Notes: generated by a model not told the origin, from the letters alone. Positions 2,164-40,587 are shown, counted from the stretch's first letter. The stretch: 64,000 bases of DNA from Alphaproteobacteria bacterium (GCA_037200005.1 JBBCGY010000001.1:416416-480415), one strand, 5' to 3'. Translations and numbers: made by a program.

Positions 2164-2547
2164 TTGCCGCGAGGATTTAAGCTTTGCGGCGCGGCGGAGT
2201 CAATTTTTGCCCATGGCGGAATTTTTTTTGCGCAGCGCATACGGCGGAAACCGCGAAGGGTGAGCAGCGTATGTTTGGCTGATTATTCGCAGATATCCGC
2301 GGATTTTTCGGCATCGCTTCATTACGCGCGAGAGTAAAAAATGCGGTTCGTGGCTCAACAGAAATACACATAATCGTAGTCACCCTATGACTGTATATAG
2401 AGGGACTGCAAGGATGGGGGTTTCTAGAAGCCGGCCGTCGGGGGCGTTTCGCGCGCGGCGGCCGTTTGATCCATGGCCTCTTTGTGTTGGGCATTCCTGC
2501 CCGGCGGATTTTCTGAGAGCGGATTATTTGTTCAGAGCGTGCTGGGC
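2164..2547. other. intergenic region, no gene seen
   Basis: This is 384 bp between tRNA-Arg and the HELVHH protein. It is relatively AT-rich in its middle part (2200-2400) and likely holds the promoters of the divergent tRNA and secreted-protein genes. An ATG at 2473 would add 25 residues to the downstream protein, but the hydrophobic signal begins at 2548. I see no strong repeat or RNA. Confidence 0.4.
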
Positions 2548-3156
2548 ATGGCAAGGCTTCTCGCCGGACTGCTGCTGGTCTTGAGCTGCATGGGCTGTGC
2601 GGCGCAATCCAGGAATTCCGGCGATATTCCGATCAACAAGGAACTGATCGGCAAGCTGCAGGCATGGATCGAGCGCGAAACCGGATACAAGGCGGCCAAC
2701 CAGCCGATCGTCGTGTCGAGCACGGACAAATTCCGGCAGGTGATGGCCTTGAACGGCGCGCTGCTCAGTTCCGGTGTTGCCTTGTATATCCCCGGCATGA
2801 TCGTTCTCAACAATGATGATGGCGGCGGCGGCCATGACGTGGTGGAAATCAGCTTGTTGCTGCATGAGCTCGTGCATCACGCGCAACTTTTCTCCAAGAA
2901 ACAGTATCAATGCAATAACGCCAAAGAATATGAGGCCTATACGCTTCAGAACAAATGGCTGGCGCAGCAGGGCGAATCCGCTTTCGCCAGCCGGGCGTGG
3001 ATCATGAAAATGGCGTATTGCGACACGCCCGATCCCCCGGCATTAAAAGCATGGGCCGCGCGTTCGGATCCAGCGGACAGAAAAAACAGCGTGAAAAAAG
3101 GACGGAAGGCGAAGAAAAAACACTCCATGATCGTCGTCCATCCCCAGCGTCATTAG
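2548..3156 (+). CDS. secreted protein with HELVHH metallopeptidase-like motif (DUF6647-like), paralogue A
   Basis: About 202 residues. The start at 2548 puts an N-terminal export signal first (MARLLAGLLLVLS... with a Cys near residue 17, possibly a lipoprotein site although the lipobox is not canonical). The core has W-ERETGY, an NQP motif, YIPGMI-LN and LLLHELVHHAQLFSKK, followed by KEYEAYTLQNKWL. HExxH plus a downstream Glu resembles a zincin active site, but activity is inferred. A close relative lies at 17613-18125. This copy alone has a lysine-rich C-terminal tail. Confidence 0.7.
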   Translation: MARLLAGLLLVLSCMGCAAQSRNSGDIPINKELIGKLQAWIERETGYKAANQPIVVSSTDKFRQVMALNGALLSSGVALYIPGMIVLNNDDGGGGHDVVEISLLLHELVHHAQLFSKKQYQCNNAKEYEAYTLQNKWLAQQGESAFASRAWIMKMAYCDTPDPPALKAWAARSDPADRKNSVKKGRKAKKKHSMIVVHPQRH

Positions 3157-17567: not shown

Positions 17568-17612
17568 GTCGCAACGCCTATCCTAGCAACAAGGGGCAAC
17601 ATCAATACTTGG

Positions 17613-18125
17613 ATGGCTAAGATGAAAATACTCAAACTGGCGACCGTAGCGGTGATGGGGATCGGATTAACCATAAATGGCGGCGCCCGCGCTGACGTTC
17701 CGGACGGCACGGCCATCGATCGCGCCATGGTGCAGGATCTCCAGAAATGGGTCGAGCGCGAAACCGGCTATCATATGCCCAACCAGCCGGCGGTCGTCGC
17801 CAGCCAGGAAAAATTCCAGCTGGTGATGAATATGAAGGGCGTCCATTACGCCGATGCTCGCGCCATGTATATCCCCGGCATGGTCATTCTGGACAATGAA
17901 ACCTGGGAGCAGGACGATCCGATCCAGGTCAGCCTGCTGGTGCATGAGCTGGTGCATCACGCCCAGCTGTTCTCCAAGCGCAAATATCCTTGCGATGATG
18001 CGCGGGAATATGAGGCCTATACGATCCAGAACAAATGGCTGGAAGAGAAGGGCGAACATCCTTTCGCCAGCCAAGCCTGGATCGACCGGATGTCGCGCTG
18101 CGAGGGAAATGGCAGTTCGGATTAA
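17613..18125 (+). CDS. secreted protein with HELVHH motif (DUF6647-like), paralogue B
   Basis: 170 residues with a cleavable signal (ATVAVMGIGLTINGGARA). The mature part parallels the gene at 2548: KWVERETGYHMPNQPAVV, YIPGMVILDN, LLVHELVHHAQLFSKR, EYEAYTIQNKWLEEKGEHPFASQAW. This copy lacks the lysine-rich tail and the Cys near the signal, so it is probably soluble in the periplasm or secreted. ATG 17622 is an alternative start. Zinc-peptidase activity is inferred from HExxH only. A CtrA-type box lies upstream and a hairpin downstream. Confidence 0.72.
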   Translation: MAKMKILKLATVAVMGIGLTINGGARADVPDGTAIDRAMVQDLQKWVERETGYHMPNQPAVVASQEKFQLVMNMKGVHYADARAMYIPGMVILDNETWEQDDPIQVSLLVHELVHHAQLFSKRKYPCDDAREYEAYTIQNKWLEEKGEHPFASQAWIDRMSRCEGNGSSD

Positions 18126-29153: not shown

Positions 29154-29885
29154 ATGGCAAAGCACGGCAAAAAATTTCGCAAGGCGTTCTCGAACGTCGA
29201 TCGCAACAAGACCTACGCCGCCGCCGAAGCGGTGAAACTGGTTCAAGCAGAACGCGGCGGGCGCGGCGCGCAAGTTTGATGAGACGTTGAAGTCTCCGTC
29301 AATCTCGGCATCGACACCAAGCAGTCGGACAGATGGTGCGCGGCATGGTGCAATTGCCGGGCGGCACCGGCAAGACCATCCGGGTGGCCGTGTTCGCCAA
29401 GGGCGACAAGGCCCGACGCGGCAACCAAGGCGGGCGCGGATATCGTCGGCGCCGACGATCTCGCCGAGAAAATCCTCGGCGGCTTCATGGCGTTCGACCG
29501 CGTCGTGGCCTCGCCCGACATGATGGGCGTCGTCGGCAAGCTCGGCAAAGTGCTCGGCCCGCGCGGCCTGATGCCTAACCCGAAGCTTGGAACCGTGACG
29601 CCGAATGTCGCCGAAGCGGTCAAGGCCGCCAAGAGCGGCGCGGTCGAGTTCCGCGCCGAAAAGGCGGGCATCGTCCAGGCCGGAATCGGTCCCAGGCCGG
29701 AATCGGCAAGGCGAGCTTCAGCGAAGACGCGCTGATGAAGAACCTGACGGCGTTCGTTCAGGCGATTCAGCAAGGCGCGTCCGTCGGGCGTGAAGGGCAA
29801 TTACATCAATAAGGTCACGCTGTCCTCCACCATGGGGCCGGGCGTGAAGATCGATTTCAACGCTGTTTTGAATAGTGCGGCTTAA
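29154..29885 (+). CDS. rplA: 50S ribosomal protein L1 (frameshifted in sequence)
   Basis: [19 protein letters not shown] at the start, then [20 protein letters not shown], a long clean block [28 protein letters not shown], and the C-terminal [20 protein letters not shown]. About 240 residues when breaks near 29248, 29300, 29330, 29410 and 29690-29790 are repaired. A short duplicated stretch (GGCCGGAATCGG twice at 29680-29706) may be an extra insertion. L1 forms the L1 stalk and usually represses its own operon. Confidence 0.95.
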
Positions 29886-29920
29886 GGGAGAATTACTTTA
29901 AGTTTAAGAAGGATCTTATT

Positions 29921-30259
29921 ATGCGCAAGCTTATGATGAAGGAAGTTTTAGATTGCACGATTATCGTTTCTGAGCAGATGCCGAAGGTTGATTCGGTCGA
30001 GCAGCAATGGCGGGTCGTTGAGCGGGGCATGTGCCTGCGGACGAGGGGCGCCATGCCTGGCCAAAACGGAAAGAAACCCGTTTGGGCGAACACGACGAAG
30101 CTTAAAACGGTTCTTGCCAAAGGTTTCTCCTCTCAAGCAGAAGCGCAAGAATACATTCACACAATGTCGGCGCCAAAAGACGCTGTTTTTGAGCCCAGTC
30201 GTTGGGACGGGGCGGTATTCAAACATCCTAAACGGCAACAGACGGCTGCGTTAGTCTGA
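29921..30259 (+). CDS. QQWRVVER-family small protein, unit 1
   Basis: 112 residues, intact. Blocks: TIIVSEQMPK near 14, VEQQWRVVERGMCLR near 25-40, LKTVLAKGFSSQAEAQEYIHTM near 63-85, and the tail FKHPKRQQTAAL. No signal, no TM. The predicted order strand-strand-helix (WRVVER, then the AEAQEYI helix) recalls small DUF2188-like folds, but this is inference. Shine-Dalgarno AGAAGG upstream. As the first unit of the array it follows rplA by 35 bp and probably shares its transcript. Confidence 0.75.
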   Translation: MRKLMMKEVLDCTIIVSEQMPKVDSVEQQWRVVERGMCLRTRGAMPGQNGKKPVWANTTKLKTVLAKGFSSQAEAQEYIHTMSAPKDAVFEPSRWDGAVFKHPKRQQTAALV

Positions 30260-30297
30260 GGGCAATTGGAGAATTTATTTTAAAAAGGAGGATTAAA

Positions 30298-30615
30298 ATG
30301 AGAAACGCCTATCATAAAATCCCTACGATTATTATTGCCGAACAGATGCCGAAAGACGAAAATGGGGTGCGCAGCAGTGGCGCGTGGTCGAGCGGGCGAT
30401 GTGCTTGCGATCAAGAGAAGACTTTGGTCAAGGCGAAGCGAGTACGTACATAAGCCCGACAAAGATCAATGAAGTCGTGGCTGAAGGCTTGCCGTCAAAA
30501 GAAGCTGCGCAGCAAACTCATCCGTGGGCTTGCAGAGACGGAAGGCGCTTCTCTTTCTAGGAGGCAGACGGCGGCATTCAAATATCCTAAACAACAGACA
30601 GCCGCTTTGGGGTAA
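30298..30615 (+). CDS. QQWRVVER-family small protein, unit 2 (frameshifted in sequence)
   Basis: Strong Shine-Dalgarno AAGGAGG. Starts MRNAYHKIPTIIIAEQMPK; the frame breaks at about 30366, where one base restores AQQWRVVERAMCLRS, and again later. It ends KYPKQQTAALG at 30615. Restored length is about 106 residues. Like unit 1 it has the VAEGLPSKEAAQ segment. Whether the break is biological or an error cannot be told, but the same error type is common here. Confidence 0.65.
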
Positions 30616-30656
30616 TGAAGTAATCGGAGAAGTTATTTTGCAAGGAGGAGCACATT

Positions 30657-30984
30657 ATGGCGAAGAAAAATTTAAACTACACGATCATTATTCCTGAACA
30701 GATGCCCAAAGTCGCGGAGGGTGTCGAGCAGCAGTGGCGCGTGGTCGAGCGCACGATGTGTTCCCGCAGGGACGGACGAAATCCTGCTGGCCAGAACCCT
30801 CATGAGTGGGAGAGCATAGCGGAAGTCAAAGCTGTTCTAGGCGAAGGCTTTCCATCCAAGAGAGAGGCGCACAGCTTCATCAAGAAGATTCCGGAAGCCG
30901 GAAGACGCTTATCTCCATACCAACCACCGGGGCGTAGTTTTCAGGATTCCTAGGCCGAAGCAACAGATAGCCGCCTTGGGCTGA
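30657..30984 (+). CDS. QQWRVVER-family small protein, unit 3 (3' frameshift in sequence)
   Basis: Shine-Dalgarno AAGGAGG. MAKKNLNYTIIIPEQMPK, VEQQWRVVERTMCSR, VKAVLGEGFPSKREAHSFIKKI are in frame. Near 30905-30950 one base is missing; the correct end reads FRIPRPKQQIAALG with stop at 30982-30984, matching the tails of units 1 and 2. As sequenced, the open frame stops at 30953. Confidence 0.68.
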
Positions 30985-31025
30985 TGGAATAGTCAGAGAA
31001 GTTATTTTCCAGGGAGGCGCGCATT

Positions 31026-31371
31026 ATGGCGAAGAAAATTTTAGATTATACGATCATCATGCCTGAACAGATGCCGAAGGTTGAGGGTGTCGAGCAGCAA
31101 TGGCGCGTGGTCGAGCGTGCCATGTGTTCCTGCAAGGCCGGGAATCCTCCTGGTAGAAATCTCATTATTGGGAGAGCGTGGCGGAACTCAAAACCGTCCT
31201 AGCCGAAGGCCTTTCCTCTCAAGACGAGCGCGGAAATTCATTCATAAGATTAAAGAGCCGGCAGATACGGTTTTTCATTCCAAGCGCTGGGGATATGTGT
31301 TGAAATTTCCGAAAGCGACGTGGGAACATTCTAAAAGACAGAGAGCCATCTTAGGTTTACAGGTTGGTTGA
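31026..31371 (+). CDS. QQWRVVER-family small protein, unit 4 (frameshifted in sequence)
   Basis: Shine-Dalgarno AGGGAGG. Starts MAKKILDYTIIMPEQMPK, VEGVEQQWRVVERAMCS, then the frame breaks near 31150. The C-terminal half FIHKIKEPADTVFHSKRWGY and KFPKATWEHSKRQRAIL continues in another frame to 31371. The first 130 bp are almost identical to unit 3, implying recent duplication. Restored length is about 114 residues. Confidence 0.65.
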
Positions 31372-31380
31372 GGAAACGAC

Positions 31381-31638
31381 ATGTATAACGTATTTCCCTA
31401 TTTTTATGTCACCGCCGTCGAGATTTCGCGGCAAAAAGGCGCCACGCAGGAATGGCGTCTTGCGCGCCGACAGATTTTGAGTGTAAAAGATCGTGGCCGC
31501 ATGAAAGTTTCGCATAACGCCGAAGTGCTGGCCGATGGCCTTACGACCAAGGCGGCGGCTCAATTGGCTCTTGCGACGCTTCCGCCTTCGCCTGAAATGA
31601 AGATGGCGAAGAGCGGCATGGCAAGGCTGGAACGCTAA
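31381..31638 (+). CDS. diverged QQWRVVER-family small protein, unit 5
   Basis: 85 residues, intact. MYNVFPYFYVTAVEISRQK replaces the usual opening; ATQEWRLARRQIL corresponds to EQQWRVVERAMC, and LADGLTTKAAAQLALATLP to the VLAEGLPSKEAAQ block. It lacks the FKHPKRQQTAAL tail. It starts 9 bp after unit 4. The kinship is my alignment by eye and is less certain than for units 1-4. Confidence 0.6.
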   Translation: MYNVFPYFYVTAVEISRQKGATQEWRLARRQILSVKDRGRMKVSHNAEVLADGLTTKAAAQLALATLPPSPEMKMAKSGMARLER

Positions 31639-33014: not shown

Positions 33015-33089
33015 ATTTTATGCGGCGTATTTTTTATTTTCATCTTTTTCTGGTATAACGAAACAACGGAAATTTTCAGAGAATTGGGC

Positions 33090-33599
33090 ATGGCAAATTC
33101 GATTGGTTTTAGTTTGTACGAGAGCGCTCTCGGCTTGTCGGGCATGGTCTGCGGCGCCGGTGGGATACTCTACGGTCTGCTTGGGTCCGAGCATCATCCG
33201 GCCGAATGGGTCGTTGGCGGCGCGGTGGCGATTTATGCCGGCGTGAAGACGTTTCGCCAGGCGGGACGAGAGATAACTTCGCCCGAGTCGTCGCGTAGAT
33301 CGCAAGCGCCATCCTCGCGGCACAGCGTTACCGCGCCTTCCAGCACGCCTTGGGTGAATTATGTCGCGCCAGACGGCACGACGTCCGTTCAGCCGCCCGC
33401 CAGCGGCCCCATGCCGCGCGAGCATATGGAACCCGGCGTTCGCTATGTCGGGCCCGATGGCGCGACTTACCGCAAGCACGATGCGCGGCCCATGGGCACG
33501 CCGGACTCCGTCCGCCCCCCAGAGGAGTCTCAGAGGCCAAGCTTTATCCTGAGCCAAGAAGAGCTCGCGCGGCGATTCACGAAATTAAATCAGGGGTGA
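33090..33599 (+). CDS. uncharacterised small membrane protein
   Basis: 169 residues. Two hydrophobic stretches near residues 15-30 (GLSGMVCGAGGILYGLL) and 40-52 (VVGGAVAIYAGV), then a polar Ser/Pro-rich region with a short internal repeat, WVNYVAPDGTTSV and VRYVGPDGATYRK, and a C-terminal LSQEELARRFTKL. ATG 33084 is an alternative start. The repeat Y-V-x-PDG-x-T may be a small beta unit. Function unknown. Followed after 7 bp by another small membrane protein. Confidence 0.65.
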   Translation: MANSIGFSLYESALGLSGMVCGAGGILYGLLGSEHHPAEWVVGGAVAIYAGVKTFRQAGREITSPESSRRSQAPSSRHSVTAPSSTPWVNYVAPDGTTSVQPPASGPMPREHMEPGVRYVGPDGATYRKHDARPMGTPDSVRPPEESQRPSFILSQEELARRFTKLNQG

Positions 33600-33606
33600 T
33601 GACAAC

Positions 33607-33960
33607 ATGAACGCCATTCCCGTCAGATATTCCCGCATCACCGATGTCGTCGGCGCGACCGTGGGTTGCACCGGGTTGGTCGGAACGGTCATCGCCGGAT
33701 TTGCCTCGCCTGAAGGGGCCCATGCCGTCAATGATCTGATCACAACCGGGGCCGAGGTTACAGGCGCGGGTCTGGCGATTTTCCTGTTCGGTCGCGCCGC
33801 GCAGGCGATTGTCAATCATGTGAAGACTCCCGCGCAAAAACAGCCCGCCGCCGCGGCATCGCCGCCGGAATCCAATCTTAAGGGCCGGCTTCCAACTACG
33901 CCGGATTATGCCGCGGCCAAGGCGCGCCGCACGCCGCCTGTTCAATACAGGGTTCGCTGA
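33607..33960 (+). CDS. uncharacterised small membrane protein
   Basis: 117 residues. Two TM segments near 12-32 (VGATVGCTGLVGTVIAGF) and 45-65 (TGAEVTGAGLAIFLFG), followed by a basic, Pro/Ala-rich tail. Same layout as the preceding protein: two TM, polar Pro-rich C-terminus. Probably co-transcribed with it. It converges on lolD with 18 bp between stops. No family recognised. Confidence 0.6.
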   Translation: MNAIPVRYSRITDVVGATVGCTGLVGTVIAGFASPEGAHAVNDLITTGAEVTGAGLAIFLFGRAAQAIVNHVKTPAQKQPAAAASPPESNLKGRLPTTPDYAAAKARRTPPVQYRVR

Positions 33961-37484: not shown

Positions 37485-37922
37485 TCAGGGCTTTTGCTCA
37501 AGGCACAAAACGGCCAGATTTTCCTGCGCCTGACTGGTCAAAGGCTGGCCGTTATAAGTCACCTGATCGCCGGTGACCTCGATGGCGCCGAGGCGGACCT
37601 TGCTGGCGTCCAGCTTATTGTAGGGATAATCCTGGTTCGGCAGCCACTGGCGCAGGCCGGAATCGAGTTCGATGGCGATCGTCTCCGGCAGTTCGATTGG
37701 CGGCGTATCCTCAAGATCGGCGGGGGCGACCTTCTTGCCGTTGACATCCACGCCCGGCTGATAGGCGACGTCGGCTGACGGATGATGCTTGATCAAGGCG
37801 CGGCAGGCGGCGCGGGAGATAGTGACGGTCTGCGCGCCTTCCTTCTTTGCCGGTTCGGCGGCCTGGGCGTGCAAAGGGCAGAGCGCCCACGCGCAAATAA
37901 TCGCGGCGGCGATTCGCATCAT
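37485..37922 (-). CDS. uncharacterised secreted protein
   Basis: 145 residues with a Sec signal (IAAAIICAWALCPLHAQA). The mature part contains SRAACRALIKHHPSADVAYQPGVDVNGKKVAPADL, a stretch common to small alphaproteobacterial exported proteins of unknown function, and a C-terminal Cys in LAVLCLEQ. Its start overlaps the stop of the last two-Cys array gene (ATGA), so they are co-transcribed, and proS follows after 45 bp. Confidence 0.7.
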   Translation of the reverse strand: MMRIAAAIICAWALCPLHAQAAEPAKKEGAQTVTISRAACRALIKHHPSADVAYQPGVDVNGKKVAPADLEDTPPIELPETIAIELDSGLRQWLPNQDYPYNKLDASKVRLGAIEVTGDQVTYNGQPLTSQAQENLAVLCLEQKP

Positions 37923-38287
37923 GGCGGCTTCGGCGACAGGCGGTTAATGGAGATCTCGGGTTCACAGGGGAAGCCCACGGGGCGTGTCGGCGCCTGATAG
38001 CATGCTACGCCGACATTGACGGCGTAACCCAGGCCTTCGCCTGCGATCGTGGCGGTAGTTCCTTGTCCCCTGACGCCTCCTGCATAAGGGGCATAAGGGA
38101 AAATACGCAAATTATCGTGCCCTTGACCATTGATCACGAGCCCATAGCCGAAATCGGGGTCATCGGCGGGCGTTCTTATCTGAGCGGCGCCCGATGCATA
38201 TAAACTTACCGCTCCTGCGCCCAGAGCGGCAAAGGCGCCAATCGCACCGGCGGCAAGGGTGGTTCGCATGCTTTTAGTTAACGCCAT
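37919..38287 (-). CDS. two-Cys membrane-anchored small protein, array member 1
   Basis: 122 residues. N-terminal anchor TLAAGAIGAFAALGAGAVSLYASGA, a Gly/Tyr-rich middle (YGLVINGQGHDNLRIFPY) and the C-terminal signature C-YQAPTRPVGFP-C. Last gene of the array on this strand; overlaps the next secreted-protein gene by 4 bp. The anchor suggests a periplasmic C-terminus. Function unknown. Confidence 0.68.
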   Translation of the reverse strand: MALTKSMRTTLAAGAIGAFAALGAGAVSLYASGAAQIRTPADDPDFGYGLVINGQGHDNLRIFPYAPYAGGVRGQGTTATIAGEGLGYAVNVGVACYQAPTRPVGFPCEPEISINRLSPKPP

Positions 38288-38296
38288 GGCGGCCTC

Positions 38297-38635
38297 TCAA
38301 GGATCGAACAAAACAAGATGGGAAGAGCATGAGGGTTTTCCGGGACGCGCCGGGGCGACATTGATCGCGCAATCTCTGCGGAGCGCGCTGTAGGAGGATG
38401 GAGTCTGGAAGCTGATCCCAGTTTCGGTTCCCATGTCCCGGCTATCGGCCCAATCGAAAACGGAAAGATTATATCGGCGGTTGCCGGACAGATTCAGCGT
38501 AACGCCTTTGACATCATTGTCATTGGTAATACTGACGGCGCCCGACGCGCAGAGACCGACGACGCCCGCGCCAAGCGCGCTGGCCGCCGCGATGGCGCCG
38601 ATGGCGAAGTTTCTTTTTGTCAGAATGGATGTCAT
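38297..38635 (-). CDS. two-Cys membrane-anchored small protein, array member 2
   Basis: 112 residues from ATG 38635. Opening SILTKRNFAIGAIAAASALGAGVV, then GVTLNLSGNRRYNLSVF, and the C-terminal loop C-AINVAPARPGKPS-C. ATG lies within the stop of member 3 (4-bp overlap). The KRN-AIGA start is nearly the same in members 2, 3, 4 and 6. Confidence 0.68.
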   Translation of the reverse strand: MTSILTKRNFAIGAIAAASALGAGVVGLCASGAVSITNDNDVKGVTLNLSGNRRYNLSVFDWADSRDMGTETGISFQTPSSYSALRRDCAINVAPARPGKPSCSSHLVLFDP

Positions 38636-38970
38636 CGCGCGAGCTTGAAGTTGAATTGCGGTTTGCAGCGGAAACCGCCGGGCCGCGCGGGTACGGGATC
38701 GCAATCCCAGCTGGCCCCGCTGTAAGCCCAGGGTGTTGACAGGCCTATGCCGGTCGACGTCTCGAATGTCAAAGGGGAAGTCTTGTCGGAGATCGACAGG
38801 CCGAATCTAGCATGGCCGGGCATCGTCACCGTGACGCCGTTCAAATAGGGATACTCGTAGGCATGCGCCTCGACTATGCCGGTCATGCACAATGCGGTGC
38901 CGCCTAGGGCCGTTCCCCCGATGACGGTTCCCGCGCCGATGGCAAGATTTCTTTTAGTAAGCCAGGACAT
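38632..38970 (-). CDS. two-Cys membrane-anchored small protein, array member 3
   Basis: 112 residues from ATG 38970 (38979 is an alternative). Opening SWLTKRNLAIGAGTVIGGTAL, then NGVTVTMPGHARFGLSIS, and C-DPVPARPGGFR-C-KP near the end. The middle GVT(V/L)(T/N)(M/L) and (F/Y)(G/N)LS(I/V) align with member 2, giving a likely beta-rich ectodomain. Confidence 0.68.
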   Translation of the reverse strand: MSWLTKRNLAIGAGTVIGGTALGGTALCMTGIVEAHAYEYPYLNGVTVTMPGHARFGLSISDKTSPLTFETSTGIGLSTPWAYSGASWDCDPVPARPGGFRCKPQFNFKLAR

Positions 38971-39073
38971 GCAACCCATCCTCGATATCGACCGACAGCA
39001 ATATCTTGTTAGAATAGCTCAAAATCGTGAAAATAATGACACAAAAATGATTTTCCGGGGGTGGCTTTTCTCA

Positions 39074-39421
39074 TTAACGCTCCAGCCCGACGACAGGTTT
39101 GCAGGACAAACCATGACTTGGAGGACGGACGGGATCGCAGATAAAGCCTGTCCTGAAGCCGCGGGAAGACCAGTCATTGGAGGCGGACTCGGAAGAGCTG
39201 TAGGCGTTCATCCCGAACCAGTGGCTGCTGCCGTCGGTCTGGCGATAGAATTGAAGCTGGAGATTATGGCGCGGCCAGGCGACGCCTATATTGCTGACGC
39301 CCGGTTCCTCGTCGTTTTCGATATAAGGTTTCGCGCCCGCTATCCATATGGCGGCCGCGCCAACACCAAGCATGCTCGCTGCGATAGCGCCGACAGCAAG
39401 GTTGCGTTTGCTCATGAGCAT
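39074..39421 (-). CDS. two-Cys membrane-anchored small protein, array member 4
   Basis: 115 residues from ATG 39421 (39415 possible). Opening MSKRNLAVGAIAASMLGVGAAAIWIAGA, then VAWPRHNLQLQFY, an Asn/Ser-rich stretch, and C-DPVRPPSHGLS-C-KP. About 100 bp separate it from member 3. Confidence 0.67.
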   Translation of the reverse strand: MLMSKRNLAVGAIAASMLGVGAAAIWIAGAKPYIENDEEPGVSNIGVAWPRHNLQLQFYRQTDGSSHWFGMNAYSSSESASNDWSSRGFRTGFICDPVRPPSHGLSCKPVVGLER

Positions 39422-39431
39422 GGGCAGACGC

Positions 39432-39842
39432 CTATGGATACTGAAATCCGCATACCCTTTTGGGTATGCTCGGCAGATGCCGGGGATTAAAGGGAGAATC
39501 GCATGTCGCGCCGATGCCGACGCCTCCGGTATTGACGAATTTGCCGCCGACATTCTTGATGTGGTCGACGCCTATGGCAAAATGCCGAACGGGTTCCGAT
39601 CCCAGCGACGGGAAAGACATATAGGTTGTCCAGAATTGGTATCGCGTGCCGCCTGGACTGCCCAGGCTAAGACCGGCCTCGTGTATGCCGTCGTCATTGT
39701 CGTTCAAATTCATGCCGCCGTTTATATAATGGGTTTTCACGCCCACGGTAGCCGTAATAGCCATGGCGGTCAGCGCCGCGCCGGCGATGATGAAGCGGCG
39801 CGCGCGCGAGGATTTCGGGCTTTTTTCCGTCACAGCGTCCAT
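39432..39842 (-). CDS. two-Cys membrane-anchored small protein, array member 5 (diverged)
   Basis: 136 residues from the ATG at 39842. The opening differs (SSRARRFIIAGAALTAMAITATVGV) but keeps one anchor. The ectodomain has GGTRYQFWTTYMSFP, and the C-terminal loop is longer, C-DSPFNPRHLPSIPKRV-C. The start overlaps member 6 by 13 bp. It is the most diverged member, placed by position and the Cys loop. Confidence 0.6.
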   Translation of the reverse strand: MDAVTEKSPKSSRARRFIIAGAALTAMAITATVGVKTHYINGGMNLNDNDDGIHEAGLSLGSPGGTRYQFWTTYMSFPSLGSEPVRHFAIGVDHIKNVGGKFVNTGGVGIGATCDSPFNPRHLPSIPKRVCGFQYP

Positions 39843-40174
39843 GGCTGGCCTATCGACTGGGTGCGGGCGTGGGGCGCGCAATCGGAATAGACCGGCTTTG
39901 CCGGAGACGGCGTGCAGCGAAAGCCGATCGTCTTGAATATGGGCTGTCCCGCGGTCTGGATCGTCGCGCCGATGTCGATATATCGTCCCCGGCTGCCCGA
40001 TCCGGCATTAACGAAAGAAAAGGTGGCGTAACGCTTCCCGGGCAAGGGGATGCGAAACTCATTGCTGACATTGTTGAGCGCGCCCGACGCGCAAAGATCG
40101 ACCGCGCAAAGCCCCAATGCGGCAGAGACCGTCATAGCGCCGATGGCGAGATTGCGTTTGGTTAACAGTGTCAT
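39830..40174 (-). CDS. two-Cys membrane-anchored small protein, array member 6
   Basis: 114 residues. Opening MTLLTKRNLAIGAMTVSAALGL, then IPLPGKRYATFSFVN, and C-TPSPAKPVYSD-C-AP. Same plan as members 2-4: anchor, a beta-like Gly/Phe segment, then the closing Cys loop. Confidence 0.67.
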   Translation of the reverse strand: MTLLTKRNLAIGAMTVSAALGLCAVDLCASGALNNVSNEFRIPLPGKRYATFSFVNAGSGSRGRYIDIGATIQTAGQPIFKTIGFRCTPSPAKPVYSDCAPHARTQSIGQPWTL

Positions 40175-40196
40175 CGGGGCCTCTTCGCGGACTCGG

Positions 40197-40514
40197 TTAT
40201 TTTATGAAAGGAATATGGGTCACGCAAGGCACGGATCTGGGGCGCATAGGAGAATAATCGCATTCCCGGCTCAGGAATAATCTGCGTCCCTTGGGGCCAC
40301 TAACCCCCAGACCCCATTCCGTATAGGGCACCGAAGAGTTTTTAACGCTGAAGGCGGAAAGCCTGGATCCGGCCATTTCGACTGAAACGCTTGTTTCGAT
40401 GGAATTGTTTCTGGTTTTGACGAGGTCGGGCAGGAAAGTCCGTGCGCTCCAGCCGATGGCGCCTATGCCCAGGATCGCGCCGAGGGCGAAATGAGTTTTC
40501 GTGATCCGCGACAT
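40197..40514 (-). CDS. two-Cys membrane-anchored small protein, array member 7
   Basis: 105 residues. Opening SRITKTHFALGAILGIGAIGW, then VSVEMAGSRLSAFSV, and C-DYSPMRPRSVP-C. It is the first array gene in transcription order, 73 bp after the end of valS on the same strand, so either read-through from valS or a promoter in 40515-40587 drives the array. Confidence 0.66.
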   Translation of the reverse strand: MSRITKTHFALGAILGIGAIGWSARTFLPDLVKTRNNSIETSVSVEMAGSRLSAFSVKNSSVPYTEWGLGVSGPKGRRLFLSRECDYSPMRPRSVPCVTHIPFIK

Positions 40515-40587
40515 ACGGCCTTATCCAGAAAAATTGCTAATAAAACTATGTTTTGAACATAGCATAAAATCCTGAAAGTAATAATGC

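Follow-up and report, generated by a model that had tools for sequence, protein, structure and literature searches.

Within the 64,000-nucleotide stretch of alphaproteobacterial DNA analysed here (the window), seven adjoining small genes, T1 to T7, form one homologous family, beyond chance, with weak membership for T3. They look like a young, lineage-specific gene family, and most likely encode exported or membrane-anchored periplasmic proteins, judging from their N-termini.

Arrangement of the array

Seven consecutive open reading frames of 105, 114, 136, 115, 112, 112 and 122 amino acids (T1 to T7) occupy 37919-40514 on the minus strand, bearing out an earlier, sequence-only reading of this DNA that described seven consecutive minus-strand genes of 105-136 residues. 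Coordinates are those of the most plausible ATG starts:

Element before T1, 40559-40582, minus strand: 24 bp, ATTACTTTCAGGATTTTATGCTAT; probable promoter or operator
T1, 40197-40514, minus strand: 105 aa; N-terminal helix ITKTHFALGA; loop CDYSPMRPRSVPC
T2, 39830-40174, minus strand: 114 aa; LTKRNLAIGA; loop CTPSPAKPVYSDC
T3, 39432-39842, minus strand: 136 aa; SRARRFIIAGA; loop CDSPFNPRHLPSIPKRVC; the copy diverged furthest
T4, 39074-39421, minus strand: 115 aa; MSKRNLAVGA; loop CDPVRPPSHGLSC
Element before T5, 39014-39037, minus strand: 24 bp, ATTATTTTCACGATTTTGAGCTAT; probable promoter or operator
T5, 38632-38970, minus strand: 112 aa; LTKRNLAIGA; loop CDPVPARPGGFRC
T6, 38297-38635, minus strand: 112 aa; LTKRNFAIGA; loop CAINVAPARPGKPSC; modelled as helix 4-30 plus six strands
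T7, 37919-38287, minus strand: 122 aa; loop CYQAPTRPVGFPC
T8, 37485-37922, minus strand: 145 aa; Sec-type signal sequence; two invariant Cys; unrelated to T1-T7

The genes around the array are argH, valS, T8, proS and a lolC-like gene. The array had been placed between valS and proS, which is right on the valS side; the other immediate neighbour is T8, and proS starts 45 nt past it. Overlaps of 4-13 bp, also claimed earlier, exist within the array at T2/T3 (13 bp) and T5/T6 (4 bp, ATGA), and T7/T8 overlap in the same manner (4 bp, ATGA). The remaining junctions are gaps of 22 bp (T1/T2), 10 bp (T3/T4), 103 bp (T4/T5) and 9 bp (T6/T7).

The reading frames are open in all seven copies. They come from a single assembly in which indel errors may exist: in the same window rplA (ribosomal protein L1; 28851-29900, plus strand) has lost its frame at several points, a sign of assembly indel errors or of a real lesion.

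Homology among the copies

When a profile of the other six copies was used as the query and judged against 999 shuffles of the copy itself, six of the seven were recovered with E-values from 3e-20 to 4e-6; T3 reached only 0.03, barely beyond its best shuffle. With the first 32 residues cut off, T5, T6 and T7 were still clear, T1 and T2 modest, and T3 and T4 not significant. Because their signal is lost in this way, the membership of T3 and T4 is largely a matter of N-terminus, position and the Cys pair.

Between pairs of copies the identity averages 35% over the N-terminal part, 15% over the middle and 31% from the first loop Cys onwards. The strong divergence of the middle parts noted earlier is thus borne out, and these identities support the wider description, that of small exported or anchored proteins in a tandem family, each with a Cys loop and a middle that has diverged. 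The paralogue tree is star-like with low support, and the idea of a block duplication of T1-T4 giving T5-T7 was dropped. Third-position GC is 0.58-0.72 in the array genes versus 0.77-0.84 in the neighbours, which fits young or foreign genes.

Distribution

The family profile found no credible match in 39 relatives, in 33 members of the order and in class-wide (385) and phylum-wide (398) sets of genomes (overlapping sets, in which the nearest members are other genera), and nothing credible beyond T1-T7 in its own genome. Phages and plasmids, searched with one copy each, gave no credible match, and a peptide-pattern scan of viral contigs gave none. The same type of scan of the GTDB species set also returned nothing, a weak negative, the pattern being carried by only 11 stretches. 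A BLAST search for arrays of at least three small paralogues, covering about 375 kb sampled from this genome (twenty 20-kb stretches less 25 kb of N), showed no credible one, though it would miss divergence at the level of T1, T3 and T4.

Known families and structures were equally silent: no match above cut-off or clearly significant in Pfam, NCBIfam, PHROGs or PADLOC, and no supported match in the PDB by sequence. The best sub-cutoff family match was of DUF7268 to T1 (21.6 bits versus a cut-off of 27). This and the weak matches to PhiKZ gp244, DIM and NfrA_C were rejected, being below cut-off and differing from copy to copy. Several other candidates were set aside as chance: window 29292-29405 (E 0.002), in the wrong frame of the frame-broken rplA; a match in locus L032 (E 0.13) that overlaps another gene's reading; one in genome G092 (locus L043, E 0.0025), on the strand opposite a recN-like gene; and halophile plasmid matches (E 0.8). 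An apparent array in locus L137 is an antisense reading of a repetitive protein.

No homologue of the Cys loop was therefore found in any related genome, an outcome that the sequence-only reading had listed as counting against it. We take this absence to mean a lineage-specific family, not the lack of a family, since the seven copies are mutually homologous and their N-terminal change is mostly synonymous. The paralogues are adjacent, and orthologues are absent from sister genera (the nearest genomes available being other genera), as in a tandem lineage-specific family.

Other features of the window and genome

Between rplA and rplJ, 6 kb from T1-T7, stands another tandem array, made up of small orphan genes (29876-31638, plus strand). 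It has about four copies, some broken, of the motif IIPEQMPKV..VEQQWRVVER, and these were found in this genome only, among the same 39 relatives. Two adjoining orphan small membrane-type proteins with no Pfam match are encoded between rplL and the lol genes (33084-33960, plus strand). Also in the window, 2473-3156 and 17568-18125 (both plus strand) are paralogues, 48% identical and 15 kb apart, the first of which matches DUF6647. Elsewhere in the genome, contig 2 has two adjoining PilT/DotB/TraJ-like ATPase genes that fall below all curated cut-offs (L147:4577-6616, plus strand), and there are tandem paralogue pairs at L142:8699-9467 and L133:18773-20000 (both plus strand), the first member of each having no NCBIfam match.

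The genomic site

In three genomes of the same family (G001, G002 and G003) the valS stop overlaps the T8 start by 4 bp, with nothing between. In nine further members of the order (G005, G013, G016, G018, G022, G023, G024, G026 and G032) the matched ends of valS and T8 are at most 264 bp apart, which leaves too little room for a T gene. T8 is a conserved periplasmic-type protein, widespread in the order, with Cys40 and Cys140 invariant in six aligned members, and in relatives the valS-T8 junction is often followed by proS. Since relatives join valS directly to T8, the array interrupts an ancestral junction, and does so in this lineage only. By the C-terminal part of valS, the best named relative is the alphaproteobacterial MAG isolate Go_SlAct_bin_533 (66%). 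We saw no long repeat flanking the array, no integrase among its neighbouring ORFs, and no adjoining mobile element, toxin, receptor or secretion gene.

Upstream elements and transcription units

The gaps before T1 (73 bp, 30% GC) and T5 (103 bp, 41% GC) lie in a window of 60% GC and have a 24-bp element in common. The two copies agree at 20 positions and end 44 nt (T1) and 43 nt (T5) before the ATG; one in 2000 shuffled pairs scored as high. A degenerate version of the pattern occurs at two places in the window, before T1 and before T5; among the other loci examined, only those covering this same array have it. We read the two copies as probable promoters or operators. The repeated element therefore suggests two units, T1-T4 and T5-T7, the latter running into T8, and the array is likely to be expressed in this way, probably not as one operon. 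The earlier description of one operon is unsupported, as the AT-rich 103-bp gap before T5 repeats the element found before T1.

Upstream of T1 and just downstream of valS there is also a perfect 7-bp inverted repeat (40545-40561; CTATGTT-CAA-AACATAG, then TTTTATT), a candidate operator or weak terminator.

The N-terminal module

All seven copies carry a hydrophobic helix of about 20 residues after a basic N-terminus (Lys/Arg), with a best 19-residue Kyte-Doolittle mean of 1.4-2.0, and no copy has a later stretch as hydrophobic. The stretch proposed as an N-terminal anchor is thus present throughout; its LTKRN-AIGA signature is strict in T2, T5 and T6, near in T4, and degenerate in T1, T3 and T7. 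In the codons of the TKRNLAIGA block (T2, T4, T5 and T6) pS is 0.59 and pN 0.11, a pN/pS of about 0.19. The block differs mostly at synonymous sites, therefore the motif has been kept by selection and is not the trace of recent copying.

Signal motifs rule out pilins and lipoproteins. The prepilin peptidase site G|[FM]xxxE is absent from all seven N-termini (no border Gly, no Glu at +5), and the lipobox [LVI][ASTVI][GAS]C is missing from every signal end: Leu precedes the helix Cys of T5 (ALC) and T6 (GLC) and both Cys28 (DLC) and Cys23 (GLC) of T2, and T1, T3, T4 and T7 have no Cys at the lipobox location. The sequence-only reading thought of surface exposure; a periplasmic orientation is as far as the sequence itself goes.

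Near the helix end a cleavage-like site is found in T2, T4, T6 and T7 ([S/A]GA) and in T5 (AHA). With such sites, and with the remainder of each protein small and predicted to be disulfide-closed, the copies could be secreted after signal cleavage as small effectors or bacteriocin-like proteins instead of being retained in the membrane. We think this rather improbable: T1 and T3 lack the site, a hydrophobic stretch of about 20 residues is long for a cleaved signal, and no export or immunity partner gene is nearby.

The N-termini also resemble KR-type Tat signals, with KR in T2, T4, T5 and T6 ([ST]KRN[LF]A) and RR in T3. The genome encodes TatC, and the motif is constrained and runs into a Gly/Ala-rich, moderately hydrophobic stretch, so one may ask whether T1-T7 are Tat substrates, TKRN[LF]A being a KR variant of S/T-R-R-x-F-L-K and the domains being exported after folding in the cytoplasm. 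Against this, T1 and T7 lack even KR, and Lys for Arg is poorly tolerated in the Tat motif and common in Sec signals (PMC7317946); we regard the reading as decidedly doubtful. A natural one-arginine Tat signal is nevertheless on record (Hinsley 2001, as cited in PMC7317946), and the export route may be Tat or Sec.

The middle domain and the Cys loop

Each copy has two Cys near its C-terminus, separated in T1 to T7 by 11, 11, 16, 11, 11, 13 and 11 residues. The loop of 11-16 residues described earlier therefore holds for the whole array, and the RP or KP said to lie inside it for six of the seven; the T3 loop, CDSPFNPRHLPSIPKRVC, has NP and IPK instead. The pattern C-x(10-17)-C with RP/KP near the C-terminus occurs in these six genes versus 0.56% of shuffled copies. 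On its own the same motif is no rarity in non-coding frames of the window that are rich in Arg and Pro, therefore what counts is where it sits, in seven adjoining related genes. We infer that the two loop Cys form a disulfide; DsbB is encoded in the genome.

AlphaFold2 models were built from the seven sequences only. In the T6 model (pLDDT 69, pTM 0.51) Cys89 ends one strand and Cys103 opens the next, and the T7 model arranges its elements in the same order, with low confidence (pLDDT 54, pTM 0.32). Both place a beta domain after the N-terminal helix, with the Cys pair flanking the last inter-strand loop, and so the variable middle is predicted to be a beta-domain. Similar structures across copies, anticipated by the sequence-only reading, were obtained for T6 and T7 in layout and at low to moderate confidence. 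With the T6 model, Foldseek found no match in PDB and BFVD at E <= 0.001; RNA-phage coat protein and LpqH fold matches (E 0.3-0.6, TM 0.2-0.3) were not significant.

Small, anchored, tandem and diverged proteins that are predicted to face the periplasm might be orphan immunity or exclusion proteins, each blocking a different incoming toxin or phage and kept as a stack, and lineage restriction is common among defence genes. This we consider unlikely, if worth keeping in mind: no toxin gene or mobile element is seen beside the array, PADLOC, Pfam and PHROGs give no match, and known immunity folds are unmatched.

Proposed explanation

The explanation that we prefer, tentatively and at somewhat less than an even chance as a whole, is a lineage-restricted exported family with a disulfide clip, two transcription units and diversified partners. 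Repeated tandem duplication at the valS-T8 junction would have produced T1-T7. The basic, Gly/Ala-rich N-terminal helix would target each copy to the inner membrane, where it may be retained as an anchor or cut after the [S/A]-G-A site, and the predicted beta-domain of roughly 60-80 residues would face the periplasm or the cell exterior. There the C-terminal disulfide would pin the Pro-rich loop, which joins the last two strands, and would hold the small domain together as the middle sequence varies. The two copies of the promoter-like element would drive T1-T4 and T5-T7 with T8. The analysis establishes the family and its anatomy, the constraint on the N-terminus, the insertion site and the repeated upstream element; export, disulfide and fold are inferences.

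The constancy of the export and anchor module and of the clip, set against the variable middle, suggests that each copy has partners of its own. Our guess is that the copies may bind such partners, for example those of envelope attack by competitors or phage, or ligands belonging to a host or neighbouring cell. We see only a small chance that this amounts to a new family of display proteins, i.e. a constant export/anchor module and disulfide clip, a domain diversified per partner and a repeated promoter within a cluster of housekeeping genes.

Some points weigh against the preferred explanation. Neither a homologue nor a fold match giving a function was found, confidence in the models is low to moderate, T1 and T3 have no cleavage-like site, T3 can hardly be recognised as a member, and no toxin, receptor or secretion gene adjoins the array. 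Furthermore, the copies are too divergent to measure positive selection, and the variable middle may therefore equally reflect weak constraint. Alternatively, T1-T7 could be young genes that are close to neutral, copies of an orphan that is expressed, does little and drifts. The missing relatives, the lower third-position GC, the star-like tree and the second genome-restricted array 6 kb away would all agree with this. Yet seven frames are intact despite frame breaks elsewhere in the assembly, the N-terminal pN/pS is low, and the Cys pair is retained in every copy despite 15% identity in the middle, and we give this possibility little credence.

Returning to the preferred explanation, a family with no detectable relatives has grown to seven copies at a site that sister genera show in its empty state. 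The array thus offers a defined before and after for studying how a new exported family arises and diversifies. If partner binding were true, nature would have provided here a small library of binding domains, each clipped by a disulfide.

Comparison with known systems

Immunity proteins of polymorphic toxins are small, membrane-anchored and periplasm-facing, and sometimes form stacks of diverged copies. T1-T7 differ from these in having no adjacent toxin, family match or such neighbourhood. Type IV pilins and pseudopilins share with T1-T7 an N-terminal hydrophobic helix, a beta domain and a C-terminal disulfide loop (predicted in T1-T7), but T1-T7 have no prepilin cleavage motif and no Glu5, and no pilus genes lie beside the array. 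KR-type Tat signals (TtrB-like; PMC7317946) are similar in the [ST]KRN[LF]A motif and the stretch that follows it. Unlike them, T1-T7 have RR in T3 only, lack KR in T1 and T7, and have a cargo with no recognised cofactor motif.

A parallel in kind is IchFam1-25 of Ca. Ichthyocystis, families that are species-restricted, tandem, diversified and partly exported, and of obscure origin (PMC4943182). T1-T7 are likewise species-restricted, tandem, duplicated and diversified, a likeness by kind only, with no sequence relation claimed. IchFam families reach about a hundred members, including predicted secretion effectors, whereas T1-T7 are seven small proteins, anchored by prediction. T1-T7 belong, as a new family, to this known kind, that of species-restricted families duplicated in tandem and diversified, of which host-associated bacteria provide examples.
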